Notes: generated by a model from the sequence alone, not told the origin. A DNA stretch of 44,300 nucleotides from Chromatiales bacterium USCg_Taylor (GCA_002007425.1 MUGK01000042.1:1-44300), one strand, 5' to 3'. Positions 148-17,132 are shown, numbered from the stretch's first letter. Program-made: numbers and translations.

Positions 148-2550
148 TCAGGATGCGCCGAGGATGATCGACCGGTAGAGACCCTTCCAGCGCTGGCGGT
201 CGAGCTCGGTCCGCGCAATGCGCAGCGACGATTGCGCCAGCTGATCTCCGAGCGTCGGGTCCGAGTGCAGGCGCAGAACCGCATCAGCAAGGGATTGGGC
301 GTCCAACCGGGTCAATAGCACATCCTCCTCGTGCCGGAACATCTGGCCAAATGGCTGTTCAGGCAGTATGCAAGGTTTGCCCATGGCCATGGCTTCTGCT
401 ACGGCCTGCGGAAATCCTTCTGCCCTCGAAGGCAGGATCAGCGCATCGGCGTGATCATAGAGCGCCGGCAAGTCCTCGCTCTGCACAAAGCCGACGTAGT
501 TTCGATTGCCTTGCTCCTCCACCGGAAAGTTTCCCGCGAACACGAATTCGACCTGGGGCCGCTTCTCGCGCACGAGATCAGCGGCGTGCTCGATCAAATC
601 GTAGCCTTTCTCCAGCGACTTCCTGCCTACATACAGAAAACGCACGCACCCGGATGAGTTGCGTTCCCGCTTCGGTGAAAACTTCTCCAGGTCAACGCCT
701 CTGATGCAGACCTTGGCCTTGGTGCCGTCGATCACGATTTTCTGAATCCGTTTTAGTTCCCACGGCGACATCGTGATGATTTCATCCACGAGCGCCATGC
801 TCAAGGTCTGGTCCAGCAATTCACGGCCGAGGTTTTTGGGCTCCTCATCATAGGTGCCCAGCAATTTGCGCACGCCTATCTCGTCTCCCGCGAATCGCAA
901 AACGCTGCGGCAAGGCAGGAGCCGGCCTATTACGCCGATGGCGAAACCCACCGTCACTGCGCCAAAAATATTGGTCACCACATCGGGACGAATCACGTTG
1001 GCCAGCTCTAGGGCTTCGGAAAACAATATATCGGTCCTTGTCCCTTCATTGGTTCGCGCAGAAGGCTCGAAATGCGTGATGCCGTAACGAGCGCAGAGGG
1101 TTCGCAGACTTTCCCTGGCGAACGGTGGTACCGGGCCGGTCATCATGTAGATCTCGGCCTGCTGGTGGATCTCCTCGAACAGATCGGGAAAGATGTATTT
1201 CGCCCGTGTGTCCCAGATCCCTTCGCGGAACTCCCAGGGTCCCAGATACAATACCCTTTTTCTGGATCCGTCTGCCGTGCCAGGCTCTTTGACAAGCAAG
1301 TCCGCCGACGCAAGCGGGAAGTCCCTTGGGAGACTCCGTAACGGATTATCGCTCAGGCTTCCATTGGAACGAAACACATCCACTAAAGTCATCTTCAGGG
1401 ACCAGGAATGCAGGGTCACTTGTTTCCGGGCGAATTTCAACAGCGTCTTGCTTTGATTCAGCTTGTCCCTGAGCGATTGCTCGCGCAGCCCTGGTCCAAA
1501 CAGAAAGCGCCAGCCCCGGTAGGGTAACTTGAGTGCCGCAAGGTAAGAACGTGCGGCCTCCGTAAAGTACTTCGACAGTACAAGGGCTCGCGAGCTACCG
1601 CACCGTGCTTTCTCGTCCTTGGTCTGTTCCAGCAGCTTCTTTAATTGATCATGGCGCTGCGTAACCGCCTTAAGCCGCGCGCGCAGTTGGAGGTCCTCCG
1701 AGCCGTGGGTTTCGATACATTTCCTCCATCCAATTTGTTCGTCGCAGAAACGCAGATACTCGTTAACACAGTCCCGGATTTTTTCCGTAACCCTGATCGC
1801 GCCTGAAAGCCCCCTCAGTTCTTCATAGATCTTCACCGTCAGCGGGCTGGCGGGAGGACTTGCCTGTATGGTACGGTTCAGTTCCGGCCTCACGACGTTA
1901 CTCGAGCCGAGCAGGGGTTCGACGCTAATTTCGGCCGCGGGACTGTCTTGGACATAGGCGAGCAGATCCCGAACCACCTGTGCCGGACGCGCGCCCAAAT
2001 CTTCATAATGCACCAGGCAGAGCTCGCCCTGCATATGCGAAAAGGATACGGCGACCCGGTTCAGCCAGATGGCCTCGCCGATGGCGGCATCCAACCCGTA
2101 GGTTTTGTGAATAGAGTTGGCGACGGAGCTTGGGTGGCGCAGGCAGAAAACGTAACGGGTGGAGATGTCCAGATCGACACAGATCTCCTGCCACAACGGA
2201 ATCAGAAGCGATAGCCGGGGGTCCTTGATGCCCCAGAGGCCATTGTGCCGTGCCATCGTGGTTTCGACGTAGGCCCTTAGTTTCGTCTTCGCGGCGGATA
2301 CCGCCGGATGGTTCGTCCAGTCGGCGGGAAATGGCACGGCGGCACCGACTATGCCATGACAACCCAGCGCATCCAGTAAAGCCTGGTGGGTCTCCACGAC
2401 ATACCGGTCCTCCCAATAGCCTGCCGGATTAGCCTGGTTGGCAGGGATCAGATCGGTCGATAAGCCAACCCCTGCACGGTGCAGGATCTGCATGACGAGC
2501 GATGTGCCGCTTCTGCCCGGGCCTAATACGAACACAATGGCGAACTTCAT
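148..2550 (-). CDS. Sulfotransferase-glycosyltransferase (GT4) fusion protein
   Basis: This 800-residue protein joins two enzymes. Residues 1-280 resemble PAPS-dependent sulfotransferases: the 5'-phosphosulfate loop GPGRSGTSLV lies at 10-19, KDPR at 109-112 and a 3'-phosphate motif (FCLRHPSSVANSIHK) at 135-149. Residues about 285-390 are charged and probably helical, like a coiled-coil linker. Residues about 430-795 form a GT-B glycosyltransferase of the GT4 type, with VGRKSLEKGYDL at 641-652 and the EX7E pair E711/E719. The likely role is to add a sugar and sulfate the same glycan, in the cytoplasm before export. It is the last gene of the minus-strand glycan operon that lies wholly in the window. 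The ATG at 2550 follows a GA-rich stretch. Substrates cannot be read from sequence. Confidence 0.85.
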   Translation of the reverse strand: MKFAIVFVLGPGRSGTSLVMQILHRAGVGLSTDLIPANQANPAGYWEDRYVVETHQALLDALGCHGIVGAAVPFPADWTNHPAVSAAKTKLRAYVETTMARHNGLWGIKDPRLSLLIPLWQEICVDLDISTRYVFCLRHPSSVANSIHKTYGLDAAIGEAIWLNRVAVSFSHMQGELCLVHYEDLGARPAQVVRDLLAYVQDSPAAEISVEPLLGSSNVVRPELNRTIQASPPASPLTVKIYEELRGLSGAIRVTEKIRDCVNEYLRFCDEQIGWRKCIETHGSEDLQLRARLKAVTQRHDQLKKLLEQTKDEKARCGSSRALVLSKYFTEAARSYLAALKLPYRGWRFLFGPGLREQSLRDKLNQSKTLLKFARKQVTLHSWSLKMTLVDVFRSNGSLSDNPLRSLPRDFPLASADLLVKEPGTADGSRKRVLYLGPWEFREGIWDTRAKYIFPDLFEEIHQQAEIYMMTGPVPPFARESLRTLCARYGITHFEPSARTNEGTRTDILFSEALELANVIRPDVVTNIFGAVTVGFAIGVIGRLLPCRSVLRFAGDEIGVRKLLGTYDEEPKNLGRELLDQTLSMALVDEIITMSPWELKRIQKIVIDGTKAKVCIRGVDLEKFSPKRERNSSGCVRFLYVGRKSLEKGYDLIEHAADLVREKRPQVEFVFAGNFPVEEQGNRNYVGFVQSEDLPALYDHADALILPSRAEGFPQAVAEAMAMGKPCILPEQPFGQMFRHEEDVLLTRLDAQSLADAVLRLHSDPTLGDQLAQSSLRIARTELDRQRWKGLYRSIILGAS

Positions 2551-2596
2551 GCTCCCTCTTGCCTACCGTTGTGTGAGCAAGGTCCTGCGTTCTTGG

Positions 2597-2965
2597 TCAA
2601 TCCCGGCTCGCATCACGCCTATTGGGGACAATCGCACGCTCCAGCAGCCGCCTGACCAGGCGATAGGAACGCCCGAATAGGCGATATGAACGCCTGACCA
2701 CGCGATATGGGAGCGGAAGGCCCAGCGCCCTGAATGCCCTCAGAATGGTGCTCCCGGTACGGTAGGCCATGGAACTAAAATAAACGTTTAAATCGTCCCT
2801 ATTAATTTTCTCCAGCTCGGCATTGCGCACGCGCATTTCCTCGATCTGATCGGACAAATCCATTGCCATTACCAAACCGTCGTTGATCTGCTCGACCATC
2901 GCAGTCAATTCCTGCTCCAATTCGGCGTTACGTATAGCCAGCTCCGATTCTATGTTTGCACCCAC
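2597..2965 (-). CDS. Small coiled-coil, basic-tailed hypothetical protein
   Basis: I recognise no family. The first 45 or so residues are rich in E, L, A, N and Q in a heptad-like pattern that suggests a coiled coil. The last 50 are strongly basic and aromatic, with repeated RSYRLxxR-type segments. The frame is open from a TTG at 2974, but the GTG at 2965 sits about nine bases after AAGGAG, so I prefer it (122 residues). It starts just after the stop of the upstream sulfotransferase, so it is cotranscribed. The long linker of the following fusion protein has a comparable charged helical region, so this could be a scaffold or partner for the sulfotransferases. That role is inference. Confidence 0.55.
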   Translation of the reverse strand: MGANIESELAIRNAELEQELTAMVEQINDGLVMAMDLSDQIEEMRVRNAELEKINRDDLNVYFSSMAYRTGSTILRAFRALGLPLPYRVVRRSYRLFGRSYRLVRRLLERAIVPNRRDASRD

Positions 2966-2978
2966 CTCTTTCAACTCC

Positions 2979-4049
2979 TTATTCTATATCTCCGCGACCA
3001 TGACTTTCTTCTAAAATCGCCGCATGATGTACTTTGTCAGATGCAAAGAAGTCACGGCGAAATATTCTATGCCCGTTCCGATCCGCCATCTCCTGTCTCA
3101 GGCTCGACACCTGATCGGCCGGCAAACTGTTGTACCCACGGACGACGACGCCAGTCGTATCCGTATGCATGTCTTGCGCGACCTTGTCGCATTCGAATCC
3201 ATAGCCCAGTATCTCGAAATCTGACTTGAAGTATTCGTAGACCAGCCGCTGCGTTTCAGGCGTATATTTCGGTTGCACGAAATTCGCTGATCTTTCTCCT
3301 ACGTACGGCAACCAGATGTTCCTGCCAGCCAGGGATTCAACCAGCGGCCATTGTTCCTGGACCTTTTCAAGGTTGCCCACGAAATCGACAAAGATACCTT
3401 CGCTGTCTCTGATGAACAGGTTCTGATGGATGATATGGTTGTCTAGTTCCTGGAACGGCACGGCCACAAATTTCTTCACGAATTCGTTGAAATGTTCCTG
3501 CAGGGTATCCGGTCCCGGCTCAGGCAGCCGCCCCCAAAATGCGATCAAGCCACGGCGATCTCTCCCCGCGGCACGGCCGGTCATCCATCGATCCAGACCC
3601 ATGAGCGGCCCCTCAACGAACTTCGCCATGGACTTCCGGGCGGCCCTCTTCAACCTCGCCGCCAAGGAAGAATCAAAGCGATCGCCAAAGCGATCGCCGA
3701 TCCCAATGGTGCGGTAATAGCCGTTCGCGATGGCCACCCGGCGGCGCGCGTAGAATGACATCAGCCGGTCGTAGGGATTCCTGACGAAAGTGAATGTCGG
3801 GACTTCTTCCGCCCGGTAGTACTTCCTACGCTCGTTCCCTTGTGGCAACAGATCAATGACCTTGCCATCCGCCCGGATATTGCAGACGGCAAGGCGCATT
3901 GTCTTGCAGGCACATCGCGCTATGGTGATGTACGCGATGGAGTCATCGGCCAGCGGCAGAGCCAGATACGGCGAGTGCCTCTTCAGTTCCGCAGGGTAAT
4001 GATATCTCACCTGTTCATTCCCGGTCGAAGTCTTCAGGTATTCTTGCAC
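2979..4049 (-). CDS. Sulfotransferase family 2 protein (carbohydrate sulfotransferase-like)
   Basis: The protein resembles the Sulfotransfer_2 group, which moves sulfate from PAPS to sugar hydroxyls. A 5'-phosphosulfate-type loop (YITIARCACKTM) is followed by the 3'-phosphate motif FTFVRNPYDRLMSFYARR. A later LDNHIIHQNLF segment resembles the DxHxxxQ motif of HNK-1/chondroitin-type sulfotransferases. The frame is open to 4217, but that extension runs over the end of the upstream epimerase, which stops at 4066. It also reads like antisense translation, so I place the start at the GTG at 4049 (356 residues). No strong ribosome site is visible there, so the start is uncertain. It lies in the glycan operon and is the second predicted sulfotransferase. 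Confidence 0.75.
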   Translation of the reverse strand: MQEYLKTSTGNEQVRYHYPAELKRHSPYLALPLADDSIAYITIARCACKTMRLAVCNIRADGKVIDLLPQGNERRKYYRAEEVPTFTFVRNPYDRLMSFYARRRVAIANGYYRTIGIGDRFGDRFDSSLAARLKRAARKSMAKFVEGPLMGLDRWMTGRAAGRDRRGLIAFWGRLPEPGPDTLQEHFNEFVKKFVAVPFQELDNHIIHQNLFIRDSEGIFVDFVGNLEKVQEQWPLVESLAGRNIWLPYVGERSANFVQPKYTPETQRLVYEYFKSDFEILGYGFECDKVAQDMHTDTTGVVVRGYNSLPADQVSSLRQEMADRNGHRIFRRDFFASDKVHHAAILEESHGRGDIE

Positions 4050-4065
4050 GCCGGTGATCTCGTGC

Positions 4066-5055
4066 CTAGTCCGGCCCGCAGCCCTGTCGTATGAAGTACT
4101 CGACCGTTCTGCTGATACCGCCGCGCAGGTCCATGGTCGGGATCCAACCCAGGATCGATTCGGCCTTGCGGGTATCGGCGAAGTTGCGCATGACATCGCC
4201 CCTTCTGCGGGCCCCATACTCGATGCTCATTGTGATCCCCTTCTCCCTGAGTATTTCCGAAACGAGCTCCACGACCTCGGCGACCGTGTGCTCGCGACCA
4301 GTGGCAATGTGGAACAACTCCCCCGCAACGTCCCGCTCGATGGCGCGCAATACGGCATTGACGAGATCGTCAATGTAAATAAAATCGCGGCTCTGCTTTC
4401 CATCCCCGTAGATCTCGCAGGGCTGTCCGAGCAGCGCTTGGCGGATGAGCTTCGCGACTACGCTGGACTTGTGCCTGCACCCGGGGCCATAGACATTGCC
4501 GAACCGTAACGCGACCGTAGACAAGCCGAAGCTCTTAGCATACGCGCAGCAGTATCCCTCTCCCGCCAGCTTGCTCGCACCGTACGGGGACACCGGGCGC
4601 GCGGGGATCTCCTCATGCAGCGGCGGTTGTGCCTCGCCGATGGGTGCTCCCGACGAAGCGAAGAGGAATTTTCTCACGGAACTCTGGCGGGCGGCTTCCA
4701 GCATATTGAATGTCCCGATCACGTTGCTCTCCATGTCGGTCCGGGGATCCTCGACCGAAATTGGGACGCCGGTGCTGGCGGCCAAGTGAACGATACAGTC
4801 TACGCCATCGGCGCAGCGCAGTGCTGTATCAAAATCCCGTAGATCGCCCTCGACCAGGACCACACCGGTTGCCGCCCGGCAGTCTCCGGCGGGGCGCCGC
4901 GTAAACGCGGAAACCCTCCCGAGATCCTCCGCCGTACCCACCAGCAAGTTGTCGAGCACGCGAATCGCGGCGGCGGGCTCGGCCTGAAGGATGCGCCGGA
5001 TAAGTGCAGTGCCGATGAATCCACAACCACCGGTTATAAGGTATCTCGCCGGCAT
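4066..5055 (-). CDS. NAD-dependent nucleotide-sugar epimerase/dehydratase
   Basis: This is an extended short-chain dehydrogenase of the UDP-glucose 4-epimerase group (329 residues, usual length). The Rossmann motif GGCGFIG is at 9-15, an SSG segment at 134-136 supplies the catalytic Ser region, and YGASK at 158-162 gives the Tyr/Lys pair. RFGNVYGPG and DFIYIDDL are the usual substrate-domain signatures. It should interconvert or modify a nucleotide-linked hexose for the glycan assembled by this operon. The exact sugar (galactose-, GlcNAc- or uronate-type) cannot be assigned. It is followed 16 bases later by the sulfotransferase. Confidence 0.85.
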   Translation of the reverse strand: MPARYLITGGCGFIGTALIRRILQAEPAAAIRVLDNLLVGTAEDLGRVSAFTRRPAGDCRAATGVVLVEGDLRDFDTALRCADGVDCIVHLAASTGVPISVEDPRTDMESNVIGTFNMLEAARQSSVRKFLFASSGAPIGEAQPPLHEEIPARPVSPYGASKLAGEGYCCAYAKSFGLSTVALRFGNVYGPGCRHKSSVVAKLIRQALLGQPCEIYGDGKQSRDFIYIDDLVNAVLRAIERDVAGELFHIATGREHTVAEVVELVSEILREKGITMSIEYGARRRGDVMRNFADTRKAESILGWIPTMDLRGGISRTVEYFIRQGCGPD

Positions 5056-5091: not shown

Positions 5092-6192
5092 TCACAATTT
5101 TTCCGCCCGTAGCTTTGCGTAAACGGGCAGCAAGTCATTCGCGACGATGCGTTCCCAATCGAATCGTTGGATCGCCGTTCGATTCACGGCAATCTCCTCG
5201 TGCAGATCCGGTTTGGCGCATATCTGATTCAGTCCAGCTACAACTCCCTGTGGCGAATTCTGAAATGGCGTGAAAGAGAAGCCGAAACGCGACGCGTAGT
5301 CCCTATGGCCGATGGTGTCCGAGGCCATAAACGGCAAGCCCGCGGCGCTGTATTCCAGAAACTTGAGGGACGGCGCCCTGGAAAACTTGTCGTATGGTAC
5401 GTAGGCGATCCCGGCGTCGTATTCGCACAGACGGACGTAGATTTCCTCCTGCGGCACCAGTCCTGTCAGCCTGATGCAATCGCACAGCCCGCTGCTAGCG
5501 ACCAGGTTACGTAGCTCCCCCAGGGCGTTCCCGCCGCCAATAATGTCTAGGGAAGGTCTTAGGCTATTGATGCGAGAAAACCTTGCGAACGCGCGGATCA
5601 ACAGTTCCAGTTGGCGTACCCGTGCGACACTGCCGATGTAGAGAAACTTCCGGGGCGTGCCGGCCGGCCTCCCAGCAGCCTTAAAGCGCCGCGTTTCCAC
5701 GCCCGGAGGCAGCTCCGTGATGTGCCTGAAGCGCAGGGGGAGATTGTCCTCGATGGTACCCAGGGAATGCGTGAAGACGTGATCGACAAAAAACTGGCAG
5801 AGAAAATAACGCCACAAGACGGCCGCGTGGGCGGCGTTACTGCTTACCAGAAGTGGCGAACGAAAGTCGAGGACCCGCTTAACCAGCGGGAGCGCCCGGC
5901 GCAGCCCGTAGAGGATCCGCAGGCAAAGCGGGTTATGAAACACATGCACGATCTCGGGTTTAAACCCCTGTAGCGCGCCGAAAATCTTTGCCGCCCTGGT
6001 CTCCGCTGAGCCAGCGCCTACGTCGCAGATATTGAGGTCGTCGTTTTTGTAAACGACTTCTTCGCCTGATTTCGGGTTACCCTGGCATAGCACCAGCACA
6101 TCGTGCCGTTGCGCAACATACTTCGGCATCAAATAGCTGTCCGTGCCCCCCAGGACACCGAATGCCGCTCGCATGATAAAGGCTATCCTCAT
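5092..6192 (-). CDS. Glycosyltransferase family 4 protein
   Basis: This 366-residue GT-B enzyme has an N-terminal acceptor domain beginning MRIAFIMRAAFGVLGG and a C-terminal nucleotide-sugar domain with FLYIGSVARVRQLELLIRAF and a SLKFLEYSAAGLPFMAS segment. The latter is the usual donor-binding loop, though the classic EX7E spacing is not obvious. The frame is open to 6279, but the ATG at 6192 follows AGGAAGG and matches where such proteins begin, while the extension would overlap the upstream gene. It probably adds one sugar of the repeat unit on the cytoplasmic face. Confidence 0.82.
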   Translation of the reverse strand: MRIAFIMRAAFGVLGGTDSYLMPKYVAQRHDVLVLCQGNPKSGEEVVYKNDDLNICDVGAGSAETRAAKIFGALQGFKPEIVHVFHNPLCLRILYGLRRALPLVKRVLDFRSPLLVSSNAAHAAVLWRYFLCQFFVDHVFTHSLGTIEDNLPLRFRHITELPPGVETRRFKAAGRPAGTPRKFLYIGSVARVRQLELLIRAFARFSRINSLRPSLDIIGGGNALGELRNLVASSGLCDCIRLTGLVPQEEIYVRLCEYDAGIAYVPYDKFSRAPSLKFLEYSAAGLPFMASDTIGHRDYASRFGFSFTPFQNSPQGVVAGLNQICAKPDLHEEIAVNRTAIQRFDWERIVANDLLPVYAKLRAEKL

Positions 6193-6203
6193 TTTTGGCC
6201 TTC

Positions 6204-7964
6204 CTATATCATGAGCTCCGTAAAACCTCGGCACACCTTTTTGGCATTCGTTTTCAGCAGCTCCGGGCTGGCACGCCACGTATGATCAGCGGTATCGATT
6301 CTTCGACTCACGACCATATTGAACTCATCCAAAGAGGCGATAACCAGGCGTCTCTCAGTCGCTTGCATGAGGAACGCGGTATCAGCAGTGCCGAACACCG
6401 AGTCCGGATAGCGGGTCCTCAGGAGCACGTCTTTCCTACCGCCGAGGGTATTTCCACACAGCCATAGTTCGTAATGCCCAGGCAACACGGTCAGCGCCGG
6501 AATCTTGAGCTGGCGGTCATAGGTGTCGCCTTCACCCTCGAACAAGTAGTACTTTGGAGGTTTGCCGAAGATGTCCGCGCCTACGGACCTCAAGTGCAGC
6601 ATCATGTCCAGAAGGTAGTTTTCACCGTAATAGTCGTCGTCATCCACTCGAAAGCAATACTCTCCTCTGGCCAAGACGTTGCCCAAATTCAGGCACGCAC
6701 CCGCGTACCGCTCCTCCGGGACATTGATAATTTGCACGTCATCCCTGCCCTGCGTGGCGCGAATAAGCTCCTCGGCACCGGCCAGGGATGTCCGATTAAT
6801 CACGAGGACCAGGTCCTTTTTGGGATAACTCTGGCCATCGAAGGTCTCCAGGCAACGAAATAACAACTCGATTCTGCGCGTCGGGGTGACGACCGTAGCC
6901 CCGGGGTACTCCTCCCACTCTGTCGAGATGCCGATCTTCCTGCAGATGTCCCTGAGCCGGTGGGAAAAGGTGTGCTGATGATAAACCGCCCGCCAACCGA
7001 GCTGGCCGCATTTTCTCCGGTATAGATCATCCCCCGCGAGTTTGCCGAGCTCGGCTTCCACGTCGGACGCATCGTCCCTCTCCATGACGATGCCCTGACG
7101 TACATCGTCCTGCGCGAGTCGGCCCGCGTGGATGACCGGTACCCTACACGCCGCCGTTTCCAGCACCGCCCACTGTTGGTCCGTCTTTGTACGCGGCGCG
7201 GAGTCCAGAAACAGAGCTGTCTTCGCGTATTTCACAGCCACCAGGCGGTTCGCGGCATCGACGCAGCCCAGGATGCAGGAGGAGAAGTCGGGGATTGCGG
7301 CCAGCTCTGATGCAGATACCTCGCGGCTCGAATCGATGATCTTTAATCCATATTTTGTAGCACGGCGTAGAACATCGAGGCTCTGCTTCTTATCCAGCAG
7401 ATCGGCGAGGCCATCATACAGCACACCGATGTCGAGGGCATCGGCATGGCCGAACACCCGGAACGGGTTGTAAATCTGCGGCTGGATCGCGGGCAGGAGG
7501 ACCTCCGCGTCCAGGCCGATGCTGCGCAGATCTTCCGTCTCACGCGTATCGGCGCAAAACATATAGTCGAAGCGCCTCGCGATCGACCGGAACAACCCGG
7601 CGAAAGTATGATCCTGGGTGTTCCACAGGACCGTTGGGATCCCGAGTGACTTTGCAAAGTCCAGCATGTCGGTGAGATCGGAACCCTCAGTACCGCCGGC
7701 TATGCGCCAGTCCGCGACCGATTCGTCCGGGCTGGCCTCGACAAGCACCAGGTCCGGCTTCCTCTCGCTGAGGAGTCCCTTCCAGCTCAAGGTGGTCATG
7801 GAGAGCAATTCCGCTTCATGCGCCAACCCGGAGCGCAGCCGCGCACCTGTGACGGCCGCTATGCAGAGCCCCGGCATCGCCTTCGGGCACGGGGCCGTGA
7901 ACGCCGGAACCACCGGCCTCCAGGCTACGATCCGGTCTATAATGTCTTCCCGTACTGAGCTCAT
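6204..7964 (-). CDS. Two-domain glycosyltransferase (CgeB-like GT-B plus GT2)
   Basis: The 586-residue protein has an N-terminal CgeB-like region (about 1-360; WNTQDHTFAGLF and a FCADTRETEDL segment). The C-terminal GT2 domain runs from about residue 370, with the entry strand GATVVTPTRRIELLFRCL and an acidic metal/nucleotide motif RVDDDDYYGENY. It is a paralogue of the gene immediately upstream, with the same order of segments and matching motifs. A double-domain enzyme could add two different sugars. It starts 26 bases after its paralogue ends and is followed 11 bases later by a GT4 gene, all in the glycan operon. Confidence 0.78.
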   Translation of the reverse strand: MSSVREDIIDRIVAWRPVVPAFTAPCPKAMPGLCIAAVTGARLRSGLAHEAELLSMTTLSWKGLLSERKPDLVLVEASPDESVADWRIAGGTEGSDLTDMLDFAKSLGIPTVLWNTQDHTFAGLFRSIARRFDYMFCADTRETEDLRSIGLDAEVLLPAIQPQIYNPFRVFGHADALDIGVLYDGLADLLDKKQSLDVLRRATKYGLKIIDSSREVSASELAAIPDFSSCILGCVDAANRLVAVKYAKTALFLDSAPRTKTDQQWAVLETAACRVPVIHAGRLAQDDVRQGIVMERDDASDVEAELGKLAGDDLYRRKCGQLGWRAVYHQHTFSHRLRDICRKIGISTEWEEYPGATVVTPTRRIELLFRCLETFDGQSYPKKDLVLVINRTSLAGAEELIRATQGRDDVQIINVPEERYAGACLNLGNVLARGEYCFRVDDDDYYGENYLLDMMLHLRSVGADIFGKPPKYYLFEGEGDTYDRQLKIPALTVLPGHYELWLCGNTLGGRKDVLLRTRYPDSVFGTADTAFLMQATERRLVIASLDEFNMVVSRRIDTADHTWRASPELLKTNAKKVCRGFTELMI

Positions 7965-7990: not shown

Positions 7991-9805
7991 TTAGACAAAT
8001 ACGTCCTCGACTAGATTTTCGAGCGGCTGTACCCGGCTCTTGAGCTCCGCGGTCGCTGACACCCGCGTGTGATCCTCCCGGTCCGGTTGGCGGACCGTGA
8101 CCAGGTTCAGCGGATCCAGGATCAGCACCTCGAGATCGTTGCGTCTCAATTGAAGGACGAACGCCGTATCGCCCGTCGCATGCGGCGTGTCTGCAACGCG
8201 AACGTAGGGTCCGACCGCCTTTTTGCCGGCGAGGGAATTGCCATCCAAGCAGATTTTGCCTCTTCCCGACTCCTCCGGCGGCAGGACGAACAACTCGGGA
8301 GTATTCGCCGGGGCGCCGTCGTAGATGAGAGGCTCGCCCGCGAAGGTGTAGTACCGAGGCGGCTTACCGACGACATCGGCGTCACACGCGCTGAGGTGAA
8401 GCATTATGTCGGACACAAAGCGGTCTCCGTACCGATCGTCGATATCCATTTTGAACCAGTATTCGCCGTGAGCGGCGCTGATCCCGGCCCGCATTCCGGC
8501 GCCGGTATCTTCGTCCCGCGGAAGATGCAATGCTCGTATGTCCTTGCGCGCGTTGATATAGGAGGCGATCTCGGACGCGGCCGGTCCGCCCTTGAAGAGG
8601 ATGACCAATTCCTTGTTGGGGTAGTCCTGCCGGTCGAATAAGCTGAGGCAGTCCGGCAAGCGCCCCGTCGTCGAGATCGGAACGATGATCGAAGCCCGCG
8701 GATGCTCTACCCAATCGTGGGCGATCCCCACTTTCGTGCAGATCGAATTTACCCGGCGGGCGAAGGAATGATTTAAGCACACCTGACGCCAAGCCAGATG
8801 GCCGGTCCTCTTCCGGTGCAATTCATTCTCGCGCAGCGCCGCGATCGCGGCCGGCAGGGAGTCTTCGCTCGCCGCCTCGACAACGAGGCCCTTCCGGAGG
8901 TCTCCTTCCGGCAGCCGTCCATAGTGGATGATCGGCGTCCGGCAGGCGGCCGTCTCAAGCGCTCGCCACCGCTGCTCGGTCAGAGTCAGGTGTGACTCCA
9001 GCATCAGCACGATCTGGGCGTATTTCATCGCCGTGAGCCTCCCCTGTGCGGTGACGCATCCCAGCAGGTTGCTTTCGAAGCCCTCCAGATCCCGCATCTT
9101 CTTCATGAAGATGAGGCTGTGCGAATCGATCAATTTCAACCCCTCGGAACGCAGTCGTCTCAAAACTTCAAGAGCCGCGGCATCCCGCAGGAGGTCCACT
9201 ATCCCGTCCAGCAGCAGACCGATGGCGAGCGAGTCGTCGAATCCATACGGCCGTAAGGGATTGAAGATCGCGGGCTGGACCGCCGGCAACAACAGGTCGG
9301 TATCGACGCCAGCCTCGCACAGGGCTTGTGCTTCGCGGTTATCGGCACAGAATACGAAATCGAAGTGACGGGCGAATTCCCGGTACTGGGTGTGATAGCC
9401 ATGATCCTGCGTATGCCAGAACACGCGCGGGATCCCCTTTGCCCCGGCGAGCGCCAAGATTTCCCGGAGCTCAGCATGTTCACCCGTCCGGCCTGTTTGC
9501 CCGAGATACCAGTGCCCCGTGGCGGTCTCCCAACAGGACTCGACGAGCAGCAGGTCGGGGCGACCGTAGGTCAGCACGGCCCTCCAGGTTTGCGGGGTTA
9601 GCAGCAGCAGCGTTCCCTCGTAACGAAGCCCATTCCAGAGCCTGTTACTGACGATTGCAGCGATTCTCAGGGAAGAATTTAAGCGCTTAGCCTTGAACTT
9701 GTGCAGCGAGACCGGTGGCGTCCACCAGTGAATGCGCCGGATAACTTCGTCCGGGGGGGTGGAGCGACCGAGCAGACGATGCTCGGCCATTGGTTCCGCG
9801 TTCAT
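7991..9805 (-). CDS. Two-domain glycosyltransferase (CgeB-like GT-B plus GT2), paralogue
   Basis: This 604-residue tandem paralogue of the next gene has an N-terminal CgeB-like part with FWHTQDHGYHTQYREFARHFDFVFCADNREA split over about 130-165. A GT2 part begins near residue 375 (ASIIVPISTTGRLPDCLSLF) and carries KMDIDDRYGDRF as the acidic motif, in place of VDDDD in its sister. The motif difference suggests the two copies may use different donors or that one has altered activity. The ATG at 9805 lies 12 bases after the ABC ATPase stop, so translation is probably coupled. Confidence 0.78.
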   Translation of the reverse strand: MNAEPMAEHRLLGRSTPPDEVIRRIHWWTPPVSLHKFKAKRLNSSLRIAAIVSNRLWNGLRYEGTLLLLTPQTWRAVLTYGRPDLLLVESCWETATGHWYLGQTGRTGEHAELREILALAGAKGIPRVFWHTQDHGYHTQYREFARHFDFVFCADNREAQALCEAGVDTDLLLPAVQPAIFNPLRPYGFDDSLAIGLLLDGIVDLLRDAAALEVLRRLRSEGLKLIDSHSLIFMKKMRDLEGFESNLLGCVTAQGRLTAMKYAQIVLMLESHLTLTEQRWRALETAACRTPIIHYGRLPEGDLRKGLVVEAASEDSLPAAIAALRENELHRKRTGHLAWRQVCLNHSFARRVNSICTKVGIAHDWVEHPRASIIVPISTTGRLPDCLSLFDRQDYPNKELVILFKGGPAASEIASYINARKDIRALHLPRDEDTGAGMRAGISAAHGEYWFKMDIDDRYGDRFVSDIMLHLSACDADVVGKPPRYYTFAGEPLIYDGAPANTPELFVLPPEESGRGKICLDGNSLAGKKAVGPYVRVADTPHATGDTAFVLQLRRNDLEVLILDPLNLVTVRQPDREDHTRVSATAELKSRVQPLENLVEDVFV

Positions 9806-9817
9806 TCTCGCGCGAGG

Positions 9818-11695
9818 CTATGGCGTGCTTACAAGCGAGGCACCGATGTCACGATGCTGTTCTAGCCACGTCGCATTGTCCCGTGAAAAATCGTTGTAGT
9901 GGGCTATCACCACCTCGGGCTCGTCGTCCATAACCAGCCGCCCTTTTTCGAGCCAGATGACGCGCGAGCAAAAATTCCCCAGCTGTTTGACATTGTGTGA
10001 CACCATGACCACCGCTCCCGCATTCGCTCGCATGGATTGCATGCGCTCGTCAGCCTTGCTGCTGAATGACTGATCGCCGGTAGACATGGCTTCATCCAGA
10101 ATCAGGATCTCCGGCTTGACGGCGGTCGCCACGGCGAACGCGAGTCGGCTGCGCATTCCGGATGAATATGTCCTCATGGGCTCGTCGATAAATTCCCCGA
10201 TCTCCGAGAAAGCGATGATGTCCGTCATATTTCTCATGACCTCCTTCCTGGTTAGTCCTAGGAGCGTGCCGCTGAGCAGCACATTCTCACGGCCTGTCAG
10301 TTCGGGTCGAAACCCTACTCCCAATGCTAAAAGTTGCACCCGGCCGTTACGGATCACCTCGCCATGGTCCGGGTGTAATGTGCCGGCCATTAGCATACAT
10401 AGTGTGCTTTTTCCTGAGCCATTGCGCCCGACGATTCCAACCATCTCTCCTTCAGCGACGGAAAAACTCACGTTTTTCAGCGCCCAGTAATATTTCCCCT
10501 TGTTGGACCGCCGTATTCCGCCGAACCAGGAAACAGCGCTTCTGTCATAGAAAACGCTGACCTCACGAACGGTAACGGCTACACGAGGCTCCTGCTTTGC
10601 GCGAGCGGTTGCATCGATGCGCGCCGCGGATTCGGTAAATACGTTTTGAGAAACCGGATCCCGCTGCTGCGGAATGACTTGGTCGGTGAAGACGCGGTTG
10701 CCAAATTCGTAGGTAATGAGCTCGTCGTCCACGGGAAGCTCGACACCCCTCGGCGGACTGGCTAGGTGGAAGACCTGGGGCTCGGCAAAGCGGACAATTT
10801 CCGGTACCGGCATCGCCCACGTCAGCGCGCCCGTTACAACGTCGAACGCGACCAGGCCGGATCGTTGTCCACGCTGATGAAAATCGCCTATTCCACAATA
10901 GATCGAATCTTCGCACATCGCCATGCCGCGCATGTCCCGGCCAAGCTGTGCATATCCCGGATCGCTCATGTGCGGCGTGGCAGTCCACTCGCTGGCTCGC
11001 GAGATCAGCCCGGTTTCATGAACCGCATCGTAGCAACTCAATTGCGTACCATTATTGTCGATCAGGAAGAAGCGCTCTCCGCTGAACAGGCCGCCGATGG
11101 GATCGTGGAGGCCATCGAAAAGCACTTCGCCGTGGTCTGTATCGACCACGACCCCCCTCTGTGAGCCGTTGCAGCCGGCTACGATCAGCAGCAATCTCTC
11201 ATCAGGCGCAACGCACATTCCTCGTATACTGCCATATTGGAATTCGGCTCCCAGCCACCCGGGAGACTCGCACAGATCCGCGGCTATTGCCCACAAGTGC
11301 CGGCGCCCGATGAACACTCCCTCGAGATCGAATTCCTCAATGCAGCATTGGCTGTTGTTTCCGACCCACACGCGCCTGCGCGCGTTTGAGGCTGCGACCG
11401 GGATCAGGTTCGCTTGCTTAGGGCCTCCGAGAACCCAATCCTTGCGAATGACCTCGCGCTCGAGGCGGAACAGCGGCGCATTCACGTCCTGTTCTACTGT
11501 ATATATGCGCAGACTTGCTTGCGTGACCGCGTATATGCGCCTGTCGACGACTGCAATCCCCCGTATTCCGGCAGATCGGAGCAAGTCGCTGGCTTGTTCC
11601 ACTTGCACGTACCGTAAGCCTCTGCCCGGCTCGACGATTCCCAGCGCCCCTCTCTGCCCGTCCGCACCTACCAATGAGACCAAAATGCCCGCCAT
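9818..11695 (-). CDS. Polysaccharide ABC transporter ATPase with N-terminal propeller-like extension
   Basis: Residues about 370-600 are a Wzt/KpsT-type ATPase: Walker A GRNGSGKST at 423-431, signature SSGMRSR at 511-517, Walker B LILDEAM at 531-537 and H-loop His567. It should power export of the glycan with the adjacent permease. The first 365 residues are a separate domain of repeating beta-rich segments (for example GIAVVDRRIYAVTQ, RVWVGNNSQCCIEEFDL, SIYCGIGDFHQRG, GLVAFDVVTGALTW) that looks like a beta-propeller. Wzt proteins usually carry their glycan-binding domain at the C-terminus, so this layout is unusual. The ATG at 11695 follows AGGGAGG at good spacing, and the permease ends nine bases upstream. 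Confidence 0.85.
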   Translation of the reverse strand: MAGILVSLVGADGQRGALGIVEPGRGLRYVQVEQASDLLRSAGIRGIAVVDRRIYAVTQASLRIYTVEQDVNAPLFRLEREVIRKDWVLGGPKQANLIPVAASNARRRVWVGNNSQCCIEEFDLEGVFIGRRHLWAIAADLCESPGWLGAEFQYGSIRGMCVAPDERLLLIVAGCNGSQRGVVVDTDHGEVLFDGLHDPIGGLFSGERFFLIDNNGTQLSCYDAVHETGLISRASEWTATPHMSDPGYAQLGRDMRGMAMCEDSIYCGIGDFHQRGQRSGLVAFDVVTGALTWAMPVPEIVRFAEPQVFHLASPPRGVELPVDDELITYEFGNRVFTDQVIPQQRDPVSQNVFTESAARIDATARAKQEPRVAVTVREVSVFYDRSAVSWFGGIRRSNKGKYYWALKNVSFSVAEGEMVGIVGRNGSGKSTLCMLMAGTLHPDHGEVIRNGRVQLLALGVGFRPELTGRENVLLSGTLLGLTRKEVMRNMTDIIAFSEIGEFIDEPMRTYSSGMRSRLAFAVATAVKPEILILDEAMSTGDQSFSSKADERMQSMRANAGAVVMVSHNVKQLGNFCSRVIWLEKGRLVMDDEPEVVIAHYNDFSRDNATWLEQHRDIGASLVSTP

Positions 11696-11704: not shown

Positions 11705-12490
11705 CTAAAGTAACTTCACGATCTTACGCGACTGCCAGCGGCTCCAGATAAGCCCGATCTGCACAAGCAACAACGCCGCGACGAGCAAGCCGGCGAACGG
11801 TTGCCATCCGTACATGCTGCCGGCCAGAATGAGATCGCGCAGACTGGAAATGATCCAGGCCAGCGGATTGGCTTGAAAGAGGAGCTTGGCAGCATCCGGG
11901 ATGCTGCCTGACTCTAGCACCCTGGAAGTCGGATACAGAATCGGCGTCAGCAGAAACCCGGCGCGCAGCACGTATCCCATGATCTCGTTGGTGTCCTTGA
12001 AGTGTACCTCGCAGACGGACAGAAACAGCGCCAAACCGTAACTGTAGACCCCGATGAGGACCAGAAGCGGGAGGCTCGCCAGTAAATGAAATCCCGGAGC
12101 CTGCCTGCTCCAAGCCATGATGATTAGGAGGCCGACCGCTGCGAATACGAATTGCACCACTATAGGAATGGCGACGATGGTCTGGATCGGCATCCCGATC
12201 TGGCGAATCAGCGCGCGGTTGGCGCTGATCGCCCGCGTGCACTGACCGAGAGCCCGGGAGAAAAAGAGCCAAGGGATAACGCCATAGAGGAGGAACAGGT
12301 GGTAATTTTCCCCGCCCCCCTCAAAGATAATCCTGACGATGAAATAGTAGACGGCCATTAGGAACAACGGATCGAGCAACCACCATAGATATCCTAACGC
12401 CGTCCGGGAGACGGTTGTCTTCAGATGCAACTGAACCAGCGTTAGGAACGCGTCTCGATTTGCGAGCAATTCCGAGCAAATCCTTATCAC
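11705..12490 (-). CDS. ABC-2 type polysaccharide/polyol phosphate export permease
   Basis: This 261-residue integral membrane protein has about six hydrophobic segments and the family's conserved entry FLTLVQLHLKTTVSRTALGYLWWLLDP, split around residues 14-40, plus the conserved late segment ANPLAWIISSLRDLILAG. It pairs with the following ATPase to move a lipid-linked glycan across the inner membrane, as Wzm or KpsM does. The same frame stays open to 13369, but that part is antisense to the frame of the neighbouring glycosyltransferase. The GTG at 12490 lies behind a clear GGAGG and gives the family length, so I chose it. Confidence 0.88.
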   Translation of the reverse strand: MIRICSELLANRDAFLTLVQLHLKTTVSRTALGYLWWLLDPLFLMAVYYFIVRIIFEGGGENYHLFLLYGVIPWLFFSRALGQCTRAISANRALIRQIGMPIQTIVAIPIVVQFVFAAVGLLIIMAWSRQAPGFHLLASLPLLVLIGVYSYGLALFLSVCEVHFKDTNEIMGYVLRAGFLLTPILYPTSRVLESGSIPDAAKLLFQANPLAWIISSLRDLILAGSMYGWQPFAGLLVAALLLVQIGLIWSRWQSRKIVKLL

Positions 12491-12539
12491 TAAACACCCT
12501 CCGGCGGCGCCGGCTCGCACGAAGAATTGCGGTACATAT

Positions 12540-13715
12540 TTAGGCGTGGTCCGGGCCGTTGATGAAGTACGTAAACATCCCGGCCTGCTGCTCCCAGTTA
12601 AACCGATCGAGGTAAGCACGGCGTCCAGCCTGGGCATGCTGTCGCCGTAAGTCCTGGTTTTCGAGATAAGAGCAGATCGCGCCGGCTGCTTGCGCAGAAT
12701 CCTCGGCGTCAATGCTGATCCCGAAACCGTGGTCGCGGACGAAAGCGCCGATCGAGCCGACGTCGGAAACGACGATCGGCAGGCCGGCCTGCATGTAGGT
12801 GAAGATCTTTCTGCAGTTGCCTTCGCCCGCGAGGTGATTTCTTTCCTTCTGCAGAATAGCAAGGCCAATGAGCGAGGCCCGCAAATAGGCCTGCAATCTC
12901 CGGTAGGGCATCTGGGCCCGGAAGATCGTGACGTCAACGATCCCCAGATCGTGTCGCAATCGATCGATGTACTCCTGCTTTTCCTGAAGAGGTCCAATAA
13001 ACAGGAAGCGGATGTCCGGAAACCGATCTCTAACCGCCGGTATCGCACGCAGCGCAACGTCCAGCCCCTTGATCCGCGTAAGCCGGCCCGCATAGGCAAC
13101 GATCCTTGCGCTACCGAGCTCGCTCGCTGCCGCGGCGATCTCTGCCGCGTCGGGCTCATCATCCCGAGACGGCGTATTCCATAGCGCCAAGACGGGCCGG
13201 CGCATGCGCCGGTAATATTCTTCAAGCCAACCGTCGCGCGAGTCGATGGTCGTGATGGCAGCGACGCGCGCCAACCAGAGCCGTTCGAGGCGCCGGACCA
13301 ACGGGCGCGCCAGCCACCCGAGCCGCCCGAAATAACGCAGCATGTCTTCGCAGAAATACTCAGGGGCATCGTAGTAGAGTTTCCCGCAAAGCCCCGCCAG
13401 GACCGGTGCGGCGGGTAGAAGACAAAAGTGCGTCATGAAGATCGCGTCGACCCTGCCAATGCGGCGGATGGCCATGATGATTTGGCGTAGAAGCGACGGC
13501 AGCTTCCACAACAGGGTCGCGCTGCCGGCACCCGCCCGCAGGGGGATGTTGTGCCATTCGGACACCCATTCGTCCGGGATCGCCCGATCGCGCGGCCAAT
13601 TCCTGTTCCAGGATATAACGATGATCTCATGGCCGTCGCGGGAAAGCGTTTTACACATCAGCCGATGGCGCGGGATAATATCGGCATAGCAGCAGATGAA
13701 GATGAAGCGCTTCAT
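12540..13715 (-). CDS. Glycosyltransferase family 4 protein
   Basis: This 391-residue GT-B enzyme starts MKRFIFICCYADIIPRHR and carries IVAYAGRLTRIKGLDVALRA and FLFIGPLQEKQEYIDRL in the donor-binding half. The CRKIFTYMQAGLPIVVSDVG loop lies near residue 290-310. The acceptor half includes a short hydrophobic stretch that may touch the membrane. It lies between the SQD1 homologue and the export permease, so it probably acts on the same glycan, perhaps with sulfoquinovose as donor sugar, though that is a guess from position alone. Confidence 0.82.
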   Translation of the reverse strand: MKRFIFICCYADIIPRHRLMCKTLSRDGHEIIVISWNRNWPRDRAIPDEWVSEWHNIPLRAGAGSATLLWKLPSLLRQIIMAIRRIGRVDAIFMTHFCLLPAAPVLAGLCGKLYYDAPEYFCEDMLRYFGRLGWLARPLVRRLERLWLARVAAITTIDSRDGWLEEYYRRMRRPVLALWNTPSRDDEPDAAEIAAAASELGSARIVAYAGRLTRIKGLDVALRAIPAVRDRFPDIRFLFIGPLQEKQEYIDRLRHDLGIVDVTIFRAQMPYRRLQAYLRASLIGLAILQKERNHLAGEGNCRKIFTYMQAGLPIVVSDVGSIGAFVRDHGFGISIDAEDSAQAAGAICSYLENQDLRRQHAQAGRRAYLDRFNWEQQAGMFTYFINGPDHA

Positions 13716-13775: not shown

Positions 13776-14927
13776 TCAACCGGCCCAGCGGACCCGCGGC
13801 ATGATGCGCTTCCGATCGATCCGATCTCGGTAGGGCAGCACCCGTTGGAGCATGTCCGTGAGCACCTTTTCGGTCAGGTAATGCGGTTGCAGCCCGAGTT
13901 CGATCAAGCCGCTGTGCCGCGGATTGTAGTAGTGCTCTTCCAGCTCCTTGCGCGGATTGGGAATGGACTCCACGGCGACCTCGATTCCAAGGCCATGCGC
14001 CGCGCGCTTCACCGTGTCCGCCAGATCGTTGACCGTAAATTGCTCAGTGAACTGGTTGAAAATGCGTAGTTGTCCCGGTTCCGATGGGTGGGTCGCGGCC
14101 AGCTCGACACACTGCAACGTGTCGTTCAGGTTGAGATAGCCGCGGGTCTGCCCGCCCCGTCCATAGACCGTAAGCGGGATGCCGGCGACGGTCTGTACAA
14201 GGAACCGGTTGACCACGGTCCCGAAGATGTCGTCGTAGTGGAAGTTCGGCAGCAGCCGCTCATCGAGGTCGGCCTGCGCGGTGGACAGCCCGTAAACCGG
14301 GCCCTGCATGAGATCGGTCACGCGCAGCCGGTAGGTACGCACATAGAACCAGAGCAGATCCGTGTCTAGTACTTTTGTCGTGTGATACAAGCTGCCCGCT
14401 TGTCGCGGGTATAGAAACTTGTCCTTGCGCCCATGGTGCTCAATCTCTATCCAGCCTTCCTCAATGTCGATGTTCGGCGTTCCGTATTCGCCCATGGTGC
14501 CGAGCTTGATGATGTGGCACTGTGGCGCATGCTCCAGCACCGCCCAGATAATGTTGAAGGTCACGCCCAGGTTGTTTCGCAGCGTCAGATTCGCCTCCTG
14601 AAAGCCGATCATCGAATACGGGGCGGAGGGCTGTTCCGCGTAATGGATAATCGCTTCCGGGTCGAAATCCCGGACGATGCGAGAGAGAAGGGCGTAGTCC
14701 GCGCAATCGGCAATCTCCACATGCAGGCGTATCCCCGTGGCAGACTCGAAGATCCGCGCTCGCTCATTAAGATTCGGGGTCGGGATCAGCGCTTCCGATT
14801 CAGTCTCCATGGCGATACGCCGCCGCAGATAGTTGTCCACCAGACACACTTCATGCGATTTCGCCGCGAACGCCATGGCGGTCGGCCACCCCAAGTACCC
14901 GTCCCCACCGAGTATCAAAACGCGCAC
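13776..14927 (-). CDS. UDP-sulfoquinovose synthase-like (SQD1/Agl3 family) NAD-dependent enzyme
   Basis: The whole 383-residue protein reads like plant/cyanobacterial SQD1, which makes UDP-6-sulfoquinovose from UDP-glucose and sulfite. GGDGYLGW at 7-14 is the NAD loop. GTMGEYGTPNIDIEEG at 143-158 supplies Thr144, and YHTTK at 181-185 supplies Tyr181/Lys185, at almost the same numbers as Thr145, Tyr182 and Lys186 of SQD1. The family-specific segments EQPSAPYSMI, VYGRGGQTRGYLNL, FNQFTEQF and EEHYYNPRHS are all present. The start is the GTG at 14927, one base after the upstream stop. Because the gene lies in a glycan-export operon and no SQD2 is adjacent, I infer that the sugar goes into a polysaccharide rather than a sulfolipid. 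Confidence 0.88.
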   Translation of the reverse strand: MRVLILGGDGYLGWPTAMAFAAKSHEVCLVDNYLRRRIAMETESEALIPTPNLNERARIFESATGIRLHVEIADCADYALLSRIVRDFDPEAIIHYAEQPSAPYSMIGFQEANLTLRNNLGVTFNIIWAVLEHAPQCHIIKLGTMGEYGTPNIDIEEGWIEIEHHGRKDKFLYPRQAGSLYHTTKVLDTDLLWFYVRTYRLRVTDLMQGPVYGLSTAQADLDERLLPNFHYDDIFGTVVNRFLVQTVAGIPLTVYGRGGQTRGYLNLNDTLQCVELAATHPSEPGQLRIFNQFTEQFTVNDLADTVKRAAHGLGIEVAVESIPNPRKELEEHYYNPRHSGLIELGLQPHYLTEKVLTDMLQRVLPYRDRIDRKRIMPRVRWAG

Positions 14928-14928
14928 G

Positions 14929-16005
14929 TCAAATACCCCCCCTTTCGGCTACTTGCAGGATCCGGTTCCGCTCGATAAACTCCTTGATCTGATCGATGGT
15001 CATTGGTGCCCTGTTTGCGCTCGTGTATGGCACGTCAACGCTACTACTAACAAGCTCTGGGTAACTGTAATCGATGTCTTCGTAGACATGCCGGAACGCA
15101 GGCGGGACAGCATACATTTCGCGTAGCTCAAGTGCTCGGTTCGTTTCCTCTGCCGTCATCAACTCTTCGTAAAGCTTTTCTCCGGCCTTGGCGCCAATCT
15201 CGCGGATCTCTATGGACCGCTCATTGGGGCCGGCCAGCAGATCAATCATGGCTCGCGCCAAGTCGTCAATCTTCAGAACCGACATCTTCGTGACAAACAC
15301 TTCCCCGCCCCTGGCCAGCTCAGCGGCACGCAGGACCAGTCGTGCGCTGTCCTCAATGGTCATTACGAAGCGGGTCATGCGCGGATCGGTAAGCGTGATC
15401 GGGCCGCCAGCCAGGATCTGCTTGTAGAAAAGTGGCACAACCGATCCGCGCGAGCCGATAACGTTACCAAAGCGCGTCGAGGAAAAGATCGTGCGCTGGG
15501 ATCCCTTTAGACTGTTGGCGGCGCTCACGAGGCGTTCGCTCATGAGCTTGGAGGTACCCATCACGCTGGTCGGGTTTACAGCCTTGTCAGAACTGGTGAA
15601 GATGACACGCTCCACGTCATGCGCGAGCGCAGCGTTCACAACGTTTTTTACGCCGAGGATGTTGGTTTGCACAGCATCGAAAGGCGAGCGTTCGCACAAC
15701 AACACGTGCTTGAGCGCCGCGGCGTGGAGAACAACATCGACCCCCTGCATCATACTGTCCATCTTATCCGGATCGCGCACATCGCCCACGTATGCGTGAA
15801 AACTACTGCGCTCGGCATCGCTCCCGCGCGCGTAGGCGCGGTACGCCACGCCGAACTCCTCTTCCAGGTTGAATACCTCGGACTCGTTGCTGTCGACGAC
15901 GCGTAGCCCCGCGGGCCGTTGCCGCAAGGTGTGACGGATAAGCTCGCGCCCCACCGTGCCTGCTCCCCCCGTTAGCAGGACCGTCTTGCCGGTTAGCAGG
16001 TTCAT
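14929..16005 (-). CDS. CapD/FlaA1-like nucleotide-sugar dehydratase/epimerase
   Basis: This 358-residue short-chain dehydrogenase belongs to the polysaccharide-biosynthesis CapD/PseB group, which makes 4-keto-6-deoxy sugars from UDP-GlcNAc or epimerises them. LTGGAGTVGREL at 11-22 binds the cofactor. SSDKAVNPTSVMGTSK is the family's catalytic region, where the usual Tyr of YxxxK is replaced by Met as in FlaA1. RFGNVIGSRGSVVPLF is the matching substrate-domain signature. The ATG at 16005 overlaps the stop of the aminotransferase (ATGA), so the two are translationally coupled. This supports a dehydratase-aminotransferase pair that makes an amino-deoxy sugar. Confidence 0.87.
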   Translation of the reverse strand: MNLLTGKTVLLTGGAGTVGRELIRHTLRQRPAGLRVVDSNESEVFNLEEEFGVAYRAYARGSDAERSSFHAYVGDVRDPDKMDSMMQGVDVVLHAAALKHVLLCERSPFDAVQTNILGVKNVVNAALAHDVERVIFTSSDKAVNPTSVMGTSKLMSERLVSAANSLKGSQRTIFSSTRFGNVIGSRGSVVPLFYKQILAGGPITLTDPRMTRFVMTIEDSARLVLRAAELARGGEVFVTKMSVLKIDDLARAMIDLLAGPNERSIEIREIGAKAGEKLYEELMTAEETNRALELREMYAVPPAFRHVYEDIDYSYPELVSSSVDVPYTSANRAPMTIDQIKEFIERNRILQVAERGGI

Positions 16006-17132
16006 GTTACCGCGTCCCGTACCCAGGTGATGATACAGTCTTGGGTATCCGCATCTAGATACGGATGCATCGGTAAGCTCAGTACTTCGGCCGCGAGCTT
16101 TGCGGATGTCGGCAAACCGCCCGGACTCGTGGGGTAATGCAAATATGCCGTCTGGCAGTGGAGCGGTTTGGGATAGTAAATAGCGGTCGGAACTTTGTGC
16201 TCCTTCAATCGCTCCGCTAGCCGATCCCGCTGTTCAGTACGGACCGTATATTGCGCCCAAGCACTGAACGCGCCGCTGGCAACCTTTGGTGTGGCGACCA
16301 CATCACCCAGTGCCTCGTTATATCGCCGGGCCACGCGCTGCCGGGCCTCGATTTCCTCTTCGAAAATACTTAGTTTTTCAATGAGTATCGCCGCTTGCAA
16401 GGTATCGAGGCGGCCATTGACGCCGATGCGTACATTGTCATATTTGTCTTTTCCTTGACCGTGAGCCCGCAGTGATCGAAACACATCAGCCGTGTCAGTG
16501 TCATCGGTGAACAATGCCCCGCCGTCGCCGTAGCATCCGAGCGGCTTGGCGGGGAAGAAGCTCGTGGCTGTGATCGGCGCCATGGTGCCTACGCGCCGGC
16601 CTGCCCGTGCACCGCCAAAGCTTTGTGCCGCATCGGCAATGATATATAGATCGTATTCCCGTGCGATCCGGCGTACCTCATCGTAATCAACAGGTTGCCC
16701 AAAGAGATCGACCGGGATAACCACCCGTGGTATAAGACCTAGCTTTTTTGCGACATCTATGGCTGCTCTAAGACTAGCCATACTGATCAAATAATTACCT
16801 TCGTTGATATCCACAAAAACGGGGGTAGCGCCTAAAAGCACGACGACCTCGGCTGTGGCAACAAACGTGAATGAGGGCACAAAGACAGCATCGCCTGCTT
16901 TCACACCGAGGGCCATTAATGCTATCAGCAGTGCATCGGTACCGCTGGCGCAGCTTACGACGTGCTTAGCTCCACTGAAAGCTGCCAACGCCTGTTCTAG
17001 TTCTTCAACCTCGGGGCCAAGAATATAGTTCCCATGTGCCAGCACCCGTTTTAATGCCTCGTCAATCCGGTGCTGAAGCCGGTTGTGCTGTGTTTTTAGA
17101 TCGATAAATTGAATCGAATCGATGATGATCAT
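16002..17132 (-). CDS. DegT/DnrJ/EryC1/StrS-family sugar aminotransferase
   Basis: This 376-residue PLP enzyme transfers an amino group to a keto nucleotide sugar. SCASGTDALLIAL near 60-72 is the PLP phosphate-binding region, IIADAAQSFGG (Asp167) contacts the PLP nitrogen, and SFFPAKPLGCYGDGG holds the Schiff-base Lys196. It overlaps the next gene by four bases (ATGA). It is the first intact gene of the glycan operon; the regulator upstream is broken. The start is the ATG at 17132. A shorter beginning near IQFIDLKTQ is typical for the family but has no in-frame start codon. Confidence 0.88.
   Translation of the reverse strand: MIIIDSIQFIDLKTQHNRLQHRIDEALKRVLAHGNYILGPEVEELEQALAAFSGAKHVVSCASGTDALLIALMALGVKAGDAVFVPSFTFVATAEVVVLLGATPVFVDINEGNYLISMASLRAAIDVAKKLGLIPRVVIPVDLFGQPVDYDEVRRIAREYDLYIIADAAQSFGGARAGRRVGTMAPITATSFFPAKPLGCYGDGGALFTDDTDTADVFRSLRAHGQGKDKYDNVRIGVNGRLDTLQAAILIEKLSIFEEEIEARQRVARRYNEALGDVVATPKVASGAFSAWAQYTVRTEQRDRLAERLKEHKVPTAIYYPKPLHCQTAYLHYPTSPGGLPTSAKLAAEVLSLPMHPYLDADTQDCIITWVRDAVT

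Follow-up and report, generated by a model that had tools for sequence, protein, structure and literature searches.

A 44,300-nucleotide stretch of DNA from Chromatiales bacterium USCg_Taylor (MUGK01000042.1; contig C183 of an assembly of 2.96 Mb that is 93% complete), referred to here as the window, carries a glycan operon in which all genes lie on the minus strand, from position 17132 down to 148, with tight or overlapping junctions according to open reading frame (ORF) calls and domain searches (Table 1). The operon is truncated at position 1 by the contig edge. The same searches recovered the inventory given in the original prediction for this locus, namely an SQD1 homologue, two sulfotransferase domains, glycosyltransferase (GT) domains in five genes, a dehydratase, an aminotransferase and an ABC-2 exporter in one minus-strand run. 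Three of the genes encode short-chain dehydrogenases/reductases (SDRs): the dehydratase-type PSB, the SQD1 homologue SQP, which is separated from PSB by 1 bp, and the epimerase-type EPI, which had not been singled out before. PSB, SQP and EPI form a three-SDR cassette that is conserved across many phyla, and the window is one member of this group with O-sulfotransferases added.

Table 1. Genes of the glycan operon in the window, in the order of transcription.
Gene product	Position	Strand	Basis and remarks
DegT/DnrJ/EryC1 aminotransferase	16002..17132	-	PF01041, 347.9 bits; first gene of the run
PSB, Polysacc_synt_2 SDR dehydratase, cassette member	14929..16005	-	PF02719, 328 bits; motif SSDKAVNPTSVMGTSK
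SQP, SQD1-like SDR, PTMP subfamily, predicted sulfosugar synthase	13776..14927	-	SQD1 homology, signature residues, tree
GT4 glycosyltransferase, not SqdX-like	12540..13715	-	PF00534/PF13692
ABC-2 (Wzm-type) permease	11705..12487	-	PF01061 at residues 308-514 of the long ORF
Wzt/TagH-like ABC ATPase	9818..11695	-	ABC domain at residues ~395-606; N-terminal domain of ~380 aa
GT2 glycosyltransferase, long N-terminal part	7991..9805	-	PF00535
GT2 glycosyltransferase, long N-terminal part	6204..7964	-	PF00535
GT4 glycosyltransferase	5092..6279	-	PF13692/PF00534
EPI, epimerase-type SDR, cassette member	4066..5055	-	PF01370; motif SSGAPIG...YGASK
Sulfotransferase (Sulfotransfer_2)	2979..4217	-	PF03567, 42 bits (cut-off 22)
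Sulfotransfer_3 (N-terminal) fused to GT4 (C-terminal)	148..2550	-	PF13469, 27.7 bits; PF13692, 77.8 bits; last gene before the contig edge

SQP aligns over its full length with SQD1 of Arabidopsis (1qrr; E = 7.5e-129), whereas other SDRs are matched only at approximately 1e-9, and the model for UDP-sulfoquinovose synthase, NF041015, is by far its top NCBIfam match at 446 bits. The curated cut-off of this model (575 bits) was dropped as a membership test because it is not discriminating, with lipid-type SqdB proteins of the same class reaching just 337-340 bits. The residues H96, E99, T145, M146, E148, Y149, S180, Y182 and K186 (SQD1 numbering is used throughout) are kept, leaving the SDR triad Thr145/Tyr182/Lys186 intact. 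SQP is far nearer to SQD1 than to GalE, so that the plain epimerase named in the original prediction as a refuting case was not what we found. At position 101, SQP and all 95 P-type rows of the comparison carry proline, whereas arginine is present in SQD1, in SqdB of S. meliloti pSymB, in other alphaproteobacterial-type SqdB proteins and in Chloroflexota genes adjoining SqdX-like GT4s (R-type). The SQP-type and Arg-type proteins also differ at positions 184, 208 and 211, and together the four positions define the signature P101/T184/M208/P211 (PTMP). In a 104-row tree built without Agl3 and cyanobacterial sequences, this signature marks one clade of 73 rows that includes SQP, with a Shimodaira-Hasegawa-like approximate likelihood ratio (SH-aLRT) support of 99 and a single change. 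The Arg101 rows are separated by a branch with a support of 96, and SQP did not group with the proven or lipid-operon UDP-sulfoquinovose synthases. Pro101 alone was rejected as a group marker in favor of the four-residue signature because six P101 rows with an otherwise SQD1-like signature lie outside the clade (L106, L108, L125, L134, L137 and L139). Also outside are the long-branch L126 and L140, which has H101, and some Chloroflexota and other rows are intermediate, combining Pro101 with N/H208 and V211. One locus (L075) carries two SQD1 homologues, one of the Arg101 type and one of the Pro101 type (6338-7555 and 9998-11149), and an EPI gene lies between them. Judged by these sequence features, SQP is not simply a copy of the plant enzyme of sulfolipid synthesis but a separate relative of it.

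The R101A mutant of Agl3 is inactive, its primer translates to AEQ-[R]-SAP, and Agl3 without sulfite forms a 5,6-ene; the same study listed some homologues from non-photosynthetic bacteria as UDP-sulfoquinovose synthases, from annotation alone (PMC4388408). By its primer context, Arg101 of Agl3 is the equivalent of the SQD1 arginine. SQP may nevertheless be an ordinary UDP-sulfoquinovose synthase acting on UDP-glucose and sulfite, in which case the glycan would hold sulfoquinovose, and PSB and EPI would make or modify another of its sugars. The SQD1 match with its intact triad, the top NCBIfam model, the CysH linkage described below and the SQD1-like N208/V211 of certain P101 relatives that fall beyond the PTMP clade all fit this reading, but the arginine essential in Agl3 is proline in 95 of 95 P-type rows, the separate clade carries Met208/Pro211, and no sulfolipid-type gene has the conserved PSB partner. 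We regard it as a serious but unlikely alternative. What stands of the UDP-sulfoquinovose synthase in the original prediction is an SQD1-superfamily enzyme with sulfite chemistry suggested by the CysH linkage of its relatives; the plain synthase does not stand, given the Arg101-to-Pro change and the separate clade.

When genomes of bacteria and archaea were scanned, at least 573 SQP relatives were confirmed, of which the best 80 were kept with their flanks. Among loci with flank on both sides, 66 of 79 P-type ones have PSB within 300 bp of the SQD1 homologue, compared with 0 of 18 R-type ones (Fisher P = 1e-11), and 32 of the 79 have EPI no more than 10 kb away. The PSB of the window shares 53-57% identity with that of its relatives, and its EPI shares 54-56% identity with EPI genes adjoining PSB-SQP in relatives. 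Carriers of the cassette are highly varied non-photosynthetic bacteria from Proteobacteria, Bacteroidota, Chloroflexota, Nitrospirota, Actinomycetota, Acidobacteriota and other groups, and culturable ones include Parahaliea maris and Sneathiella chinensis. The GT genes change from locus to locus, PSB mostly stays beside SQP, and in five genomes with a non-adjacent PSB an orthologue-grade copy (48-58%) is found elsewhere. Close homologues of the DegT aminotransferase (49-62% identity) occur in just four relative loci, versus the 66 with PSB, indicating that the dehydratase is better paired with the SQD1 homologue than with the aminotransferase to which it had originally been assigned.

CysH is an adenosine 5'-phosphosulfate (APS)/3'-phosphoadenosine 5'-phosphosulfate (PAPS) reductase, the product of which is sulfite. 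PF01507 proteins scoring well above the CysH cut-off are among the frequent neighbors of SQP relatives. A strong CysH (>200 bits) is found in 13 of the 80 loci, where 0.56 would be expected (P ~5e-14); this expectation derives from the PF01507 density in 32 carrier genomes, which are not a random sample and include CysH-positive ones, so that it is, if anything, too high. The presence of CysH on the tree needs at least eight changes. CysH abuts SQP in L066, L068 and L041 and PSB in L025 and L057, and the order of CysH followed by a second SDR recurs in eight loci. The catalytic ECGxH motif is found in 12 of the 13 strong copies and also in four weaker ones, and paired-cysteine motifs (CC or CxxC) are present in 13 of 13. 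Diverged CysH-like genes with ECGxH lie closely upstream of PSB in L029, L044 and L058, and similar diverged genes, called by similarity rather than by motif, precede PSB in L157 and L158; CysD and CysN are also encoded in some relative loci. A natural CysH-SqdB fusion, a single frame of 683 residues, occurs in the R-type (sulfolipid-type) branch (L112, 610-2658, minus strand); it suggests direct sulfite channelling and illustrates what a CysH partnership would mean.

The CysH linkage supports the use of sulfite by the SQP cassette. The genome containing the window has a single CysH and a single APS kinase, both outside the operon, which are enough for the supply of sulfite and PAPS; the potential for O-sulfation proposed earlier is thereby upheld. 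Because sulfation alone would need APS kinase and not CysH, we keep sulfonation as the likeliest chemistry despite the lost Arg101. Were SQP instead free of sulfite chemistry, it would work as a UDP-sugar 5,6-dehydratase, epimerase or reductase on the PSB product and give an unusual deoxy-N-acetylhexosamine (deoxy-HexNAc) with no sulfonate. Pro101, the 5,6-ene formed by Agl3 without sulfite and the closeness of PSB, among solved proteins, to 6bwc (presumably the dehydratase Pen) point in this direction, but the repeated operonic CysH linkage then has no ready explanation, and SQP retains the SQD1 active site apart from Arg101. We consider this improbable, more so than the ordinary UDP-sulfoquinovose synthase.

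Clues to the sugar come from PSB and EPI. The nearest solved structure to PSB is 6bwc (E = 6.5e-78), followed by FlaA1 and CapE, with a PglF-like protein also among the nearest; all of these are PF02719 dehydratases. The structure search names 6bwc just as CapD, and we take it to be the 5,6-dehydratase Pen. PSB combines the Polysacc_synt_2 domain with the [ST]DK and xxxK motif, as a PF02719 dehydratase should. PF02719 dehydratases act on UDP-N-acetylglucosamine (UDP-GlcNAc) (PMC8987622). EPI has the motif SSGAPxG...YGASK and lacks the acid of the dehydratases, which suggests that it is an epimerase. In one relative locus (L023, 8886-13343), PSB, SQP, NeuB and NeuC are contiguous, an order that might lead to a nonulosonic acid sulfonated at C9. 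This arrangement and the UDP-GlcNAc chemistry of the solved PSB relatives weakly favor a HexNAc-based sulfosugar over sulfoquinovose. Pro101 was rejected as proof that the substrate is GlcNAc, the corresponding residue being lysine in FlaA1 and in PSB itself. Beside the cassette in another locus (L045, 11159-18605) are genes for NeuB, a 2-hydroxyacid dehydrogenase, a thiamine pyrophosphate enzyme, a Gfo/Idh oxidoreductase, a PseF-like cytidylyltransferase and a NeuC-like epimerase, which look like an unusual keto-sugar pathway.

On homology to SQD1 alone, SQP could be a gene for the sulfolipid sulfoquinovosyl diacylglycerol lying by chance in a glycan operon. The 93%-complete genome contains no SqdX-grade GT, its top GT4 scoring 133 bits versus 680-905 for true SqdX-like partners, and no SqdD homologue in a search run without a positive control. 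The GT4 that follows SQP (12540-13715) matches SqdX-like GT4s at 26-30% identity across at most 81 residues. A sulfolipid role was dropped on these grounds and is very improbable; likewise, no sulfolipid GT was found elsewhere in the genome that could act as the sqd2 partner envisaged in the original prediction.

The remaining genes are those of glycan assembly and export. The ABC-2 permease and the Wzt-like ATPase lie inside the GT cluster, as required for Wzm/Wzt export, in agreement with the export operon originally proposed. The ABC domain of the ATPase stops near residue 606 of 625, and a domain search found no C-terminal glycan-binding extension of the Wzt type. N-terminal residues 1-380 gave no match in Pfam or PDB searches, and a single-sequence AlphaFold model of this domain reached a pLDDT (predicted local distance difference test) of 35. 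The permease ORF (11705-13369) is too long, with the real start at approximately 12487, and the sulfotransferase ORF overlaps EPI, its start being probably at approximately 4049 or 4010. The Sulfotransfer_3 domain of the fusion protein is just above its cut-off of 27. The two GT2 genes are adjacent paralogues (39% identity); their N-terminal part is weakly GT-like in the one tested and has distant relatives in L066, L068 and L077. KdsB and LpxK genes at 20358-22473, just past the operon, indicate that the cell makes lipopolysaccharide, so that an O-antigen is one possible identity of the glycan. An MbnH/MauG-type di-heme enzyme is encoded at 28968-30299.

On balance, we think it somewhat probable that the operon makes and exports an O-sulfated surface glycan containing a C6-sulfonated sugar from the three-SDR cassette. 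In the order of steps that we infer, PSB would dehydrate a UDP-sugar, by family likeliest UDP-GlcNAc, and leave an intermediate that is either unsaturated or 4-keto; SQP would oxidize C4, attach sulfite at the C6 position of the 4-keto-5,6-ene and re-reduce C4; and EPI would epimerize the product, probably at C4. Sulfite would come from the dedicated CysH in many relatives and here from the single CysH of the genome. The sulfosugar would be incorporated into the glycan, which two PAPS-dependent sulfotransferases would O-sulfate and the Wzm/Wzt-like ABC route would export. A narrower proposal, to which we give less than an even chance, is that PSB-SQP-EPI with CysH-derived sulfite constitutes an undescribed pathway to UDP-6-sulfo-N-acetylhexosamines (N-acetyl-sulfoquinovosamine and its 4-epimer) destined for the surface glycans of many heterotrophic bacteria, some of which might also channel it via NeuC/NeuB into sulfonated nonulosonic acids.

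Several observations weigh against these proposals. Since the R101A mutant of Agl3 is dead, Pro101 could signal the loss of sulfite chemistry. Only roughly one locus in five has CysH, and the window operon lacks it. NeuB occurs in just 4 of 80 loci, and Pro101 is no clean HexNAc marker, as K/R at the position of Arg101 is also seen in UDP-GlcNAc enzymes such as FlaA1. Several genomes with SQP have no orthologue-grade PSB, indicating that the PSB-SQP partnership is strong but not absolute and that PSB may not be obligatory.

A review describes sulfoquinovose synthesis as belonging to phototrophs and certain archaea (PMC12890257). No biosynthetic route is known for sulfosugars besides sulfoquinovose, a point made for sulfofucose in PMC12421959. 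In the open literature, outside which subscription journals largely fall, we found no description of a PSB-SQP-EPI cassette, and no such system turned up under bacterial sulfosugar polysaccharides, sulfoquinovosamine or SQD1 homologues of capsule clusters. If the proposed chemistry is true, sulfonated glycans would be common in heterotrophic bacteria, the sulfur cycle would have an extra source of sulfosugars, and automatic "UDP-sulfoquinovose synthase" labels would need correcting.

Compared with known systems, the exporter resembles Wzm/Wzt and TagGH in its ABC-2 permease and Wzt/TagH-like ATPase adjoining GT genes, whereas its ATPase has an N-terminal domain of ~380 residues instead of a C-terminal glycan-binding domain. 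PSB belongs to the fold family of the PF02719 UDP-GlcNAc dehydratases (6bwc, FlaA1/PseB and CapE/FnlA) and is like CapE in its [ST]DK...xxxK motif with Met replacing Tyr, but it forms its own conserved subfamily that travels with SQP and scores under the PseB and FnlA equivalog cut-offs. SQP shares with SQD1, SqdB and Agl3 the full-length homology, the catalytic triad, the 5,6-elimination motif region and, probably, the use of sulfite. It differs from them by its separate clade with Pro101 (not Arg101, which Agl3 retains), Thr184, Met208 and Pro211, and from SQD1/SqdB by its partners, which are PSB and EPI rather than SqdX and SqdD, in a genome with no detected sulfolipid GT. As in the Agl3-dependent N-glycosylation of Sulfolobus acidocaldarius, the sulfosugar of an SQD1-family enzyme would go into a surface glycan and not into lipid; in contrast to that system, the genes here belong to a bacterial operon for ABC export that also encodes a dehydratase partner and O-sulfotransferases.

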